Part shown: positions 60,851 to 63,422 of the stretch, one piece after another
Position numbering within the stretch: the first letter of the stretch is position 1
Layout of the letters: each line of letters opens with the position of its first letter
DNA from: Embleya scabrispora
GTDB taxonomy: Bacteria > Actinomycetota > Actinomycetes > Streptomycetales > Streptomycetaceae
Assembly (NCBI RefSeq): GCF_002024165.1
Contig: NZ_MWQN01000001.1
Coordinates: 3,327,365 to 3,391,364, forward strand
Direction: 5' to 3'
DNA: 64,000 nt
Program-made: the position numbers and the translations under genes
The notes under the pieces: model-generated
Told to the model about the DNA's origin: nothing
The model's database searches: none
The model's input: only the letters and a program-made list of their open reading frames with translations

Positions 60851-61654
60851 TCAGCCGAACAACTTTTCCAACACCTCGGCCACGCCGTCGTCCTGATTGC
60901 TCCCGGTATGCCGGGTCACCGCCGCCAGTACGTCGGGATGTGCATTGGCGACCGCGTAGGCCTGTCCGGCCCAGGCGAGCAGCGGCAGGTCGTTGGGCAT
61001 GTCGCCGAACGCCACCACGTCCTCGGTGCGGATACCGCGCTGCGCGCAGAACCAGGCCAGCGTACTGGCCTTGCTGATGCCGAGGGCACTGATCTCGACG
61101 AGAGCGATCGAGGAAGAGTGGGTGAACTCCGCGTACGCCCCCGCCCGGTCGCGGGCCAGCGCGAGGAACACGTCGGGGTCGAGGCTGTGGTGTCGGGCGA
61201 GCAGCTTGAGCACCGGGCCGGTCAGCAACTCCTCGACCGGACCCACCGCGTGCACGATCGACACGTCGCGCTCCAGCGCGGGATAGGTCGGCTCGTGCAT
61301 GAAGCCGGTCTCGGTCTCCACCGCGAAGGTGACGTCGGGCACCGCCTCGCGCAACAGCCGACTGACCTTGCGCGCGGCGGTGACGTCCATCGTGTGGGTG
61401 CCCACCACCCGCTCGCCGCGCAGGTCGTAGACCACCGCGCCGTTGCCGCAGATGGCCAGTCCCCGGTGGCCGGTGACCTCCGCGACGCGCTTCATCCAGC
61501 GGGGCGGCCGGCCGGTGACGAAGACCACCTCCGCACCCGAGGACTCCACCAGCTCCAGAGCGGCGAGCGTACGCGCGGAAATGGACCCGTCGTCACGCAC
61601 GATGGTGCCGTCGAGGTCGGTGGCCACTAGACGTGGGCGATTCGTGATGGTCAC
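60851..61654 (-). CDS. HAD superfamily hydrolase, Cof type
   Basis: 267 aa. Phosphatase of sugar phosphates, flavins or similar. HAD motif I DLDGTIVRDDG (near residue 13), motif II VVFVTGRPP, motif III lysine in LGISKASTLAWF, motif IV VVAFGDMPNDLPLLAWAG. The large C2-type cap is present. GTG at 61654 (TITNRPRLVATD) with GAGGA about 8 bases upstream. The repeat region starts ~170 bases upstream of it. Confidence 0.92.
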   Translation of the reverse strand: MTITNRPRLVATDLDGTIVRDDGSISARTLAALELVESSGAEVVFVTGRPPRWMKRVAEVTGHRGLAICGNGAVVYDLRGERVVGTHTMDVTAARKVSRLLREAVPDVTFAVETETGFMHEPTYPALERDVSIVHAVGPVEELLTGPVLKLLARHHSLDPDVFLALARDRAGAYAEFTHSSSIALVEISALGISKASTLAWFCAQRGIRTEDVVAFGDMPNDLPLLAWAGQAYAVANAHPDVLAAVTRHTGSNQDDGVAEVLEKLFG

Positions 61655-61825
61655 GGGTACATCCTCGCTCGAAAACGATTCTCCGAGCACGGCGGTCCCC
61701 ACCCGGGCCGGGTGGGGCCTGCGGCGTCGCGCCGGGGCTGGGTGGGGGCCGGGGCGTCGCGCCTGGCCGGGTCGGATCCGGCGGCAGCACACCGGGCCTG
61801 AGTCGGAATCGCGGTGTTGCTTTTT

Positions 61826-62033
61826 GTTGGGCGCTTCGCGCCGGCTCGCGAGGCACCGCTTTTCTGCTCCCCCGCTTCGCTCCTCCGCAGAAAAGCGGCA
61901 CCCCGCTCGCGGCTGTGCGCCCCTCCGCTTCGCTCCGGGTCGCCCAGCCCAAAAAACAAGCGGCGGCTCCGCCGCTCTCCGCGCTTCGCGCGTCGATCAC
62001 CACCTCGGCCCCACTCGTGGGCGCTGACGCGCC
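61826..62033 (+). repeat. Long GC-rich repeat element, copy A (inverted relative to B)
   Basis: ~208 bases running from GTTGGGCGCTTCGCGCCGG to GTGGGCGCTGACGCGCC. It is the imperfect reverse complement of copy B (62151-62354): the inner 17 bases (62017-62033) match the complement of 62151-62167 exactly, and the outer ~25 bases (61828-61853) match 62327-62352. A nested hairpin CCGCTTTTCTGC (61856-61867) / GCAGAAAAGCGG (61887-61898) is perfect. Short CGCTTCGC palindrome-like units recur. No coding sequence is supported. Confidence 0.85.
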
Positions 62034-62150
62034 GACGGGATGCGCCGACGACTCGGGTCGCCGGGCAAGGCCCACATCGCGGCGGTGGTCAGGTGGGGTG
62101 GGACGCGCGTCGTGTCGCGAGCCTGGCGTCCCCGACCGCTCGTCCCCCGT

Positions 62151-62354
62151 GGCGCGTCAGCGCCCACGACCCGGGCTGCCCACGCGATCGACGCGCGAAG
62201 CGCGGAGAGCGGCGGAGCCGCGGTTTTGTGGGTCGGATGGCCCGGAGCGAAGCGGAGGGACAGCCGGCCCCGAGCGAGGGGCCGCTTTTCTGCGGAGGAG
62301 CGAAGCGGGGGAGCAGAAAAGTGGTCCCTCGCGAGCCGGCGCGAAGCGCCCTAC
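62151..62354 (-). repeat. Long GC-rich repeat element, copy B
   Basis: Reverse-complement partner of copy A, separated from it by 117 bases of unrelated sequence. The nested hairpin is kept with one mismatch: CCGCTTTTCTGC (62282-62293) and GCAGAAAAGTGG (62313-62324). Together A and B could form a cruciform of about 200 bp arms. Confidence 0.85.
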
Positions 62355-62438
62355 AAGAAGCAACGCGGCGCCCGCGACTCCGCCCGCCCACGGGCTTTTT
62401 TCGCGAGTCGGGCGTTGCGACCGCCACCCCCGCGGCGC

Positions 62439-62532
62439 GCCGGCGCCCACGCCCCAGGCCACCCACGCGATCGACGCGCGAAGCACGGGAGCAGAAAAGT
62501 GGTCCCTCGCGAGCCGGCGCGAAGCGCCCAAC
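62439..62532 (-). repeat. Long GC-rich repeat element, copy C (internally deleted)
   Basis: Direct copy of B that keeps both ends (CCCACGCGATCGACGCGCGAA and GAGCAGAAAAGTGGTCCCTC onward, each slightly shortened here) but lacks about 100-130 bases of the middle, including one arm of the nested hairpin. It ends 2 bases before the stop codon of the LLM oxidoreductase gene. Confidence 0.82.
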
Positions 62533-62534
62533 AG

Positions 62535-63422
62535 TCAGCCCAGCTGCCCCAAACCCTCACACGCGATGCGCTCGAACACCGCCTGGTCCGCCGCAAAAAC
62601 CGAATCCGGAATCGGCCAGTGAATGGCCAATTCGGTAATGCCCAGCTCCCGGTAGCGCCCCGCGTAGTCGACGAACGCGTCCATCGAGTCGAGTGGGCGC
62701 TCCAGGGTCGAACCCTGGAGGAGGACCCGCTCCAACTCCTCCGGCTTGCGGCCCTCGCTCGCGCAGATGTCGGACAGCCGGGCCAATTGCTCGGCGATCA
62801 CCTTCGGGCAGACCTCGGCCGGCACCCCCTTGGGGTCGCGGGTGTCCCCGTAGGTGATCCATCCCTGGCCGTGCCGGGCGGTCAGGCGCATCCCGCGCGG
62901 CCCGGTGGCCGCGAGGTACATGGGCACCCGGGGCCGCTGCCGGCCGCCCGGGATCATCCGCACGTCCTCGGCGGTGTAGTAGGTGCCCCGGGAGGTCACG
63001 GCCGGTTCGGACAGCAGCCGGTCGAGCAGGGGGACGAACTCGGCGAGCCGATCCGCGCGCTCCTTCGGGGTCCACGGCTGCCCGCCCAGGGCGGTGGCGT
63101 CGAAGCCGTTGCCGCCCGCGCCGACTCCCGCGATCAACCGGCCGCCGGAGATGTCGTCGATGGCGGCGAGGTCCTTGGCGAGGGTCACCGGGTGGCGGAA
63201 GTTGGGCGAGGTGACCATCGTGCCCAGGCGCAGCCGCTCGGTGGCCGCGGCGGCGGCGGTGAGGGTGGGGATCGCGCCGAACCAGGTGTGCTCCCGGAAG
63301 CTGCGCCAGGACAGGTGGTCGTACGTGTACGCGGCGTGGAAGCCCAGGTCTTCGGCCTGTCGCCAGATCTTTCGGCCCTCGGTCCAACGGTGGATCGGGA
63401 GGATCACAGTGCTCAAACGCAT
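62535..63422 (-). CDS. LLM class F420-dependent oxidoreductase
   Basis: 295 aa. Luciferase-like TIM barrel; actinomycete members use coenzyme F420. Motifs: FHAAYTYDHLSWR, LRLGTMVTSPNFRHPVTLAK, GRLIAGVGAGGNGFDA, YLAATGPRGMRLTARHGQGW. The substrate cannot be told. ATG at 63422 (RLSTVILPIHRW). It is the neighbour of a TetR gene on the same strand, 50 bases upstream, which may regulate it. Confidence 0.92.
   Translation of the reverse strand: MRLSTVILPIHRWTEGRKIWRQAEDLGFHAAYTYDHLSWRSFREHTWFGAIPTLTAAAAATERLRLGTMVTSPNFRHPVTLAKDLAAIDDISGGRLIAGVGAGGNGFDATALGGQPWTPKERADRLAEFVPLLDRLLSEPAVTSRGTYYTAEDVRMIPGGRQRPRVPMYLAATGPRGMRLTARHGQGWITYGDTRDPKGVPAEVCPKVIAEQLARLSDICASEGRKPEELERVLLQGSTLERPLDSMDAFVDYAGRYRELGITELAIHWPIPDSVFAADQAVFERIACEGLGQLG

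Follow-up and report, generated by a model that had tools for sequence, protein, structure and literature searches.

The bcr1-bcr18 repeats of the Bacillus cereus group include some with a conserved RNA secondary structure that are transcribed in UTRs (PMC3446304 and work cited there). REPs are 20-40 bp long, are marked at one end by a GTAG or CGTC tag and are often accompanied by a tyrosine transposase (PMC2817692, PMC3733652), and the bacterial MITEs NEMIS, RUP, ERIC and bcr1 are listed in PMC3733652. The telomeres of Streptomyces, of ~180 nt, form a series of hairpins on one strand, with GNA loops and compensatory changes (PMC7205883). We found no structured interspersed family of this sort described in Streptomycete-type actinobacteria. 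Here, we analyzed a three-copy repeat in a 64,000-nucleotide stretch of DNA (the window; C1:3327365-3391364) from an Embleya genome of 11.0 Mb, and its relatives in this and other genomes.

Two copies at the window locus are complete arms covering positions 1-205 of our family model R1: copy A at 61825..62034 on the minus strand (207.3 bits, E 2e-56) and copy B at 62150..62355 on the plus strand (218.4 bits, E 2e-59). Copy C, at 62433..62533 on the plus strand, is an internally deleted arm (53.6 bits, E 1e-13); the training set of R1 includes copies A and B, with copy C outside it. The folding strand, which begins with GGCGCG, is the plus strand in copy B and the minus strand in copy A, whose 5' end is at 62034 and 3' end at 61825. 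The initial annotation had described A and B as imperfect inverted repeats with exact inner and outer matches, and C as a direct repeat of the ends of B that has lost the middle. This geometry holds: the inverted segments 61795-61957/62223-62385 and 61958-62033/62151-62226 are in register and each 84% identical, the gap is ~115-117 bases, and no mismatch interrupts the inner match GGCGCGTCAGCGCCCACG or the outer match GGGCGCTTCGCGCCGGCTCGCGAGG. Copy C corresponds to B in direct repeats D1 and D2 (62427-62488 versus 62144-62205, 87%; 62473-62550 versus 62295-62372, 83%) and, as had been noted, ends directly at the stop codon of an LLM gene (luciferase-like monooxygenase, PF00296, E 8.3e-44) at 62535..63422 on the minus strand. 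A nested 12 bp hairpin had been claimed for both full copies; it is perfect in copy A and has one G-T pair in copy B. On the other side, the repeats neighbour a HAD hydrolase gene (PF08282, E 1.8e-45; 60851..61648, minus strand), and the interval 61705..61824 comprises the tail on the 3' side of copy A together with a short minisatellite of ~30 bp, in which TRF counts 2.3 units (61705-61772), a layout typical of the family. The predicted RNA fold of 61815-62385 (571 bases) has z = -24.6 relative to shuffled sequence, largely owing to pairing between the two arms. The repeats of the window are far beyond chance.

The genome search returned 56 matches with copy A as query and 93 with the whole element. 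Far from being confined to the window, which would have counted against a mobile or structured element, the family has at least 52 near-complete arms in this genome, at at least 33 intergenic loci, with 13 inverted pairs; by homology, it comprises about 50 dispersed non-coding copies. Each repeat unit consists of a single arm (~205 bases), the inverted pair being a secondary arrangement. The ends of the unit are sharply defined in the end sequences of 70-odd arms, with GGCGCG at the 5' end following a variable base context and CCCAACA/CCCAATA at the 3' end; on the folding strand the unit starts with GGCGCGTCAGCGCC and finishes with GGCGCGAAGCGCCCAACA, the 3' end usually being GCGCCCAACA. Most inverted pairs consist of a type-A arm and a type-B arm around a common spacer, represented in the window by 62035..62149. 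Pair-length matches to the window element elsewhere in the genome extend over 540-600 bases with 86-94% identity, and the inverted pairs seem to spread as a ~560-bp unit.

Several loci show further arrangements. A tandem array of ~635-bp units, each with two arms in the same orientation, adjoins an inverted pair at L071 (G000:C1:4445690-4447714). A second small common motif (around CTCGGCCGCGTAGCGGACG..GCGCCACGTGCG) lies beside some arms, in the inner flanks of L060, L061, L065 and L083, which suggests sub-families with inner modules of their own. The inner flank of L072 (1280-1560) contains several tandem ~79-bp units ending in TTGTCCTCAAGCGCCGGACGGGCTGG, distinct from the minisatellite on the 3' side.

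The GGCGCG strand folds into six hairpins, most of them with GNA or GNNA loops. In copy B, all on the plus strand, these are H6 at the 5' end of the unit (62151..62164, loop GTCA), H5 (62192..62204, loop GAA), H4 (62209..62221, loop GGA), H3 (62230..62270, with a GCGAAGC tip and five covarying pairs), the nested long hairpin H2 (62274..62332, with a purine-rich loop, a GCGAAGC tip and seven covarying pairs) and H1 at the 3' end (62338..62350, loop GAA). GNA caps are found on H1, H4, H5 and the tips of H2 and H3. The loops vary mainly at their inner positions, with rare exceptions: GAA or GCA in H5 and GAA or GGA in H1, with GGA in H4 and GTCA, rarely GTAA or GTGA, in H6. In E. scabrispora, H1 is GGCGACGAAGTCGCC or GGCGCCGAAGGCGCC, while the 5' end stays GGCGCG. 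The stems of H4-H6 are invariant in 55 arms.

RNAalifold predicted the local hairpins from a plain sequence alignment (A1); after removal of four pairs that were long-range or weak, 54 pairs were counted. Standard pairs fill 99.0% of the cells at these 54 pairs. Compensatory changes on both sides occur at 13 pairs and amount to 158 cells, compared with 50 in shuffles and at most 13 when the partners are slid by 1-3 columns; the counts are inflated by shared descent and gene conversion, so that the events are not independent. In a held-out fourth species outside the alignment (G003), the stems of H2 and H3 differ in sequence yet still pair, H5 has apposed G and A bases at the place of two Watson-Crick pairs in the others, and H1 is remodelled in most copies. 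The earlier suggestion of a structured element is thus borne out by a secondary structure conserved with compensatory changes, whose main hairpins are kept in the divergent G003. A long-range pairing of H6 with H1, present in the minimum-energy fold, was rejected: H1 changes in E. scabrispora and H6 does not, which favours the local hairpins.

The changes within the stems also indicate which strand matters. Stem wobbles on the GGCGCG strand are almost all G-U rather than A-C (75:1); with both wobble classes scored alike, the ratios among distinct variants of H2 and H3 are 44:0 and 8:1, and the ratio in the held-out G003 is 23:0. The isolated A-C cases lie at the edges of H3 in L105 and L119 and in H1 of L093. 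The folding strand beats its complement in predicted fold with both RNA and DNA parameters. Template switching, like any process that treats both strands of a DNA duplex alike, should prefer neither wobble class, so the excess of G-U supports selection on the GGCGCG strand, although strand-biased cytosine deamination could mimic part of it.

These data bear on the view that the repeats are a mutational by-product, in which template switching during replication, together with slippage, would generate palindromes and minisatellites in GC-rich intergenic sequence and make them more perfect, and the covariation would reflect the mutation process instead of function. Template switching can indeed produce compensatory changes and invert loops (PMC8794818, PMC8604942), and one arm, L119 of E. 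scabrispora (G002:C158), has an inverted H2 loop on a perfect stem, the signature of this process; minisatellites are also abundant beside arms. However, neither the strand-specific preference for G-U nor the invariant stems of H4-H6, with the same loop types in four species, is expected from such a process, and local slippage is not enough to disperse a defined unit of ~205 nt. We consider a purely mutational origin distinctly improbable.

Since paired bases have changed together, a folded single strand is probably the working form of the element. Stems with several G-U pairs are common, which makes RNA a simpler reading than single-stranded DNA and probably the likeliest functional form, with single-stranded DNA accounting for the structure almost as well. 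An element acting at the DNA level would use the same strand in a cruciform or displaced state, recognised by a protein, with any RNA being incidental; its models would be the REPs recognised by tyrosine transposases and the GNA-capped hairpins of Streptomyces telomere overhangs. GNA loops are a hallmark of those telomere hairpins, which show compensatory changes too (PMC7205883), the inverted pairs form a huge palindrome, G-T wobbles are tolerated in DNA as well, and no promoter is seen in the window element. The two ends of NZ_CP108785.1, a linear replicon of Embleya sp. NBC_00888 (L211, L212), are identical and carry 3'-strand hairpins with GTA, GGA and GTA loops; this is an Embleya telomere. 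The element nevertheless has no model match to this telomere, R1 finding nothing in the replicon ends, and neither a REP tag at its arm ends nor a transposase among the sampled neighbours; the many copies with several G-U pairs per stem would also be better tolerated by RNA. A DNA-level role therefore appears to us rather unlikely, if worth keeping in mind. A telomere origin of the family was likewise rejected on the missing model match; the contig ends of the window genome that were examined are not telomeres.

The family is also present in E. hyalina, E. scabrispora and two other Embleya. When 61 genomes were searched at the DNA level, full-length copies turned up only in the four genomes of the same genus, with short weak matches in three others. 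A covariance model built from 55 arms detected the element in 4 of 81 genomes sampled from the taxonomic family, all four of the same genus, and in none of the 77 sampled genomes outside Embleya, under stricter filters that lose weak matches. Among 84,980 species genomes, with the window genome itself left out, a 32-base core of the element is confined to Embleya scabrispora DSM 41855 and E. hyalina NBRC 13850; it occurs in no viral contig. The phage search gave no match, and the plasmid search only an Embleya replicon. Among the genera searched, the family is, on these matches, restricted to Embleya. The 5.7-Mb linear replicon of Embleya sp. NBC_00888 carries one complete copy and one remnant (NZ_CP108785.1:3646049-3646420; L210:4000-4449). 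The two are in direct orientation, the remnant coming after the complete arm and ending at a gene's stop codon, which reproduces the layout of copies B and C in the window beside a different gene. Rfam gave only chance-level matches below the gathering scores in the window region and none at five related loci. No description of the repeat was found in the open-access literature searched, which misses most subscription journals, and the passages searched in the Embleya genome papers do not mention it. The initial view that the element is undescribed agrees with these searches.

Most of the sites that could be matched in E. hyalina are occupied in both species, and the flanks of many of them are ~95% identical. 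The mean distance between an arm and its orthologue is 0.139, compared with 0.136 when partners are re-dealt among eight sites. Arms are thus no closer to their orthologues than to other arms: at orthologous sites their locus identity is lost, and the family undergoes concerted evolution. Other sites differ in occupancy. At the window locus, E. scabrispora has an empty site and E. hyalina a single, decayed arm; three loci occupied in the window genome (L054, L072 and L074) lack the element in E. hyalina, and two of them, L054 and L072, lack it in E. scabrispora as well. We infer from these empty sites that the family is mobile. A comparison of L129 (G001:C27:98000-113000) with 61716-68439, which extends past the window end, shows that E. 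hyalina has a 5.26-kb segment, the LLM gene included, in the opposite orientation to that in the window genome and E. scabrispora, with one breakpoint at the decayed arm.

Occupancy of this kind would also suit a selfish, short MITE-like element moved in trans by a transposase, with a fold that serves transposition and brings the host no benefit. Its defined ends and the strong differences in copy number among lineages, down to the one complete copy of the NBC_00888 replicon, are what such an element would show. On the other hand, the predominance of sites occupied in both species speaks against it, as does the lack of terminal inverted repeats; no target-site duplication is visible at the empty sites, where the intergenic flanks are too diverged to place exact junctions, and the alignments leave 100-200 extra unmatched bases beside the arm. 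No autonomous partner was seen either: ten sampled neighbouring proteins include no transposase and belong to ordinary Pfam families or none. We regard a MITE-like parasite as quite unlikely. A parent element with arms flanking a transposase was rejected in the same survey, the inverted pairs lying a few hundred bases apart and the sampled neighbours being ordinary genes. Insertion linked to tRNA genes was also discarded; the only ARAGORN call, located within a minisatellite next to one arm, is probably spurious.

The two sides of the unit differ in their surroundings. Arrays of ~30-bp units, or of double that length, occur in 39 of 66 outer (3') flanks, in 1 of 39 inner (5') flanks of single arms and in none of 60 random stretches of the window. 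Unit sequences vary among loci and between orthologues, and 14 matches to one unit form in the window genome lie nearly all beside arms. One orthologous site (L068 and L092) shows very fast minisatellite turnover: the units of the 3'-side array are ~15 bp long (CTCGATCCCTCGCGC) in one species and ~29 bp long in the other. The conserved 3' tail (..ACGACTCCGGCCC) resembles one minisatellite unit, so the arrays may grow from the tail. One could imagine a genus-specific interspersed, telomere-like family of GNA hairpins that is propagated and homogenised through a single-stranded intermediate, RNA or ssDNA, and seeds the 3' ~30-bp minisatellite. If true, it would be a bacterial counterpart of the SINE (short interspersed element), with its own hairpin-recognising machinery; we offer this as a long shot.

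The gene adjoining the 5' end points towards the arm in 23 of 35 callable single arms of three species, more clearly at short distance; the gene calls are rough, being based on a simple codon model, and each orthologous site entered the count on its own, which leaves the 23:12 excess as weak evidence. The gene context of callable sites is mixed (10 convergent, 10 co-directional, 6 divergent), and a role solely as a terminator of convergent genes was rejected on these numbers. The window element contains 7 terminator-like sites against 1.0 expected and no sigma-70-like promoter, so that its transcription would depend on read-through. On its way to the HAD gene, a transcript of the LLM gene would pass copies C and B, both antisense, and then copy A, which it would read in sense. 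At L054 the upstream gene has a hairpin of its own, also in species lacking the element, and a terminator is not needed there.

We favour, with moderate confidence, a role of the family as an RNA terminator or stabiliser in 3' UTRs. The functional form would be a folded single strand, the chain of six hairpins from GGCGCGTCAGCGCC to GGCGCGAAGCGCCCAACA, acting as RNA. The copies are intergenic and tend to follow a co-directional gene, so a transcript reading through such a copy would bear the fold on its 3' side; there the fold would terminate or stabilise the RNA and shield the gene beyond. New intergenic sites would rarely be reached, by some route, and resident copies would overwrite one another by gene conversion, keeping the family uniform within a species. 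The reading as a whole, a genus-specific interspersed family that likely acts as RNA on the 3' side of genes, spreads rarely and is homogenised by gene conversion, has in our estimate about an even chance of being right.

Defined ends, strand-specific covariation, lost locus identity and a one-sided minisatellite make the family a clean test system. With it one can ask whether such repeats act as RNA or as ssDNA or arise as by-products of mutation, and by what means the intergenic regions of bacteria expand. The comparison of G-U with A-C wobbles between strands helps to separate selection on a single strand from template-switch artefacts and is applicable to other repeat families.

Of the readings first proposed for this locus, a non-autonomous mobile element, a REP/BIME-like family and a structured RNA all hold in a general sense, and a true REP or a classical MITE does not, there being no tag and no terminal inverted repeats of the single unit, nor any target-site duplication visible in the diverged flanks. 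Like the Streptomyces telomeres, the unit is a one-strand series of GNA-capped stems, a structural likeness without a model match, but its copies are internal, intergenic and about 50 in number. With REPs and BIMEs (RAYT) it shares an extragenic palindromic nature and alternating orientation, as in the 13 inverted pairs of the window genome. It differs in being a ~205-nt unit with six hairpins instead of a single palindrome of 20-40 bp, and the GTAG/CGTC tag is not found at the ends of the 70-odd arms, CGTC preceding the 5' end only in one arm of many pairs. Like MITEs, it falls in the 70-300 bp class, is non-coding, dispersed next to genes and foldable when transcribed, with orthologous sites both occupied and empty (the window locus, L054, L072, L074). 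Unlike MITEs, the single unit lacks terminal inverted repeats, since H1 changes in E. scabrispora and the 5' GGCGCG stays; the inverted pairs do have long inverted arms, and single arms are common. The bcr1-bcr18 repeats (PMC3446304 and work cited there) are likewise taxon-restricted and intergenic, but unrelated in sequence and host phylum, and the Embleya family is set apart by its six GNA/GNNA hairpins, its frequent inverted pairs and its one-sided ~30-bp minisatellite. While fitting the full definition of no described family, the Embleya repeats are in kind closest to the bcr repeats, the NEMIS/ERIC-type MITEs and the BIMEs.
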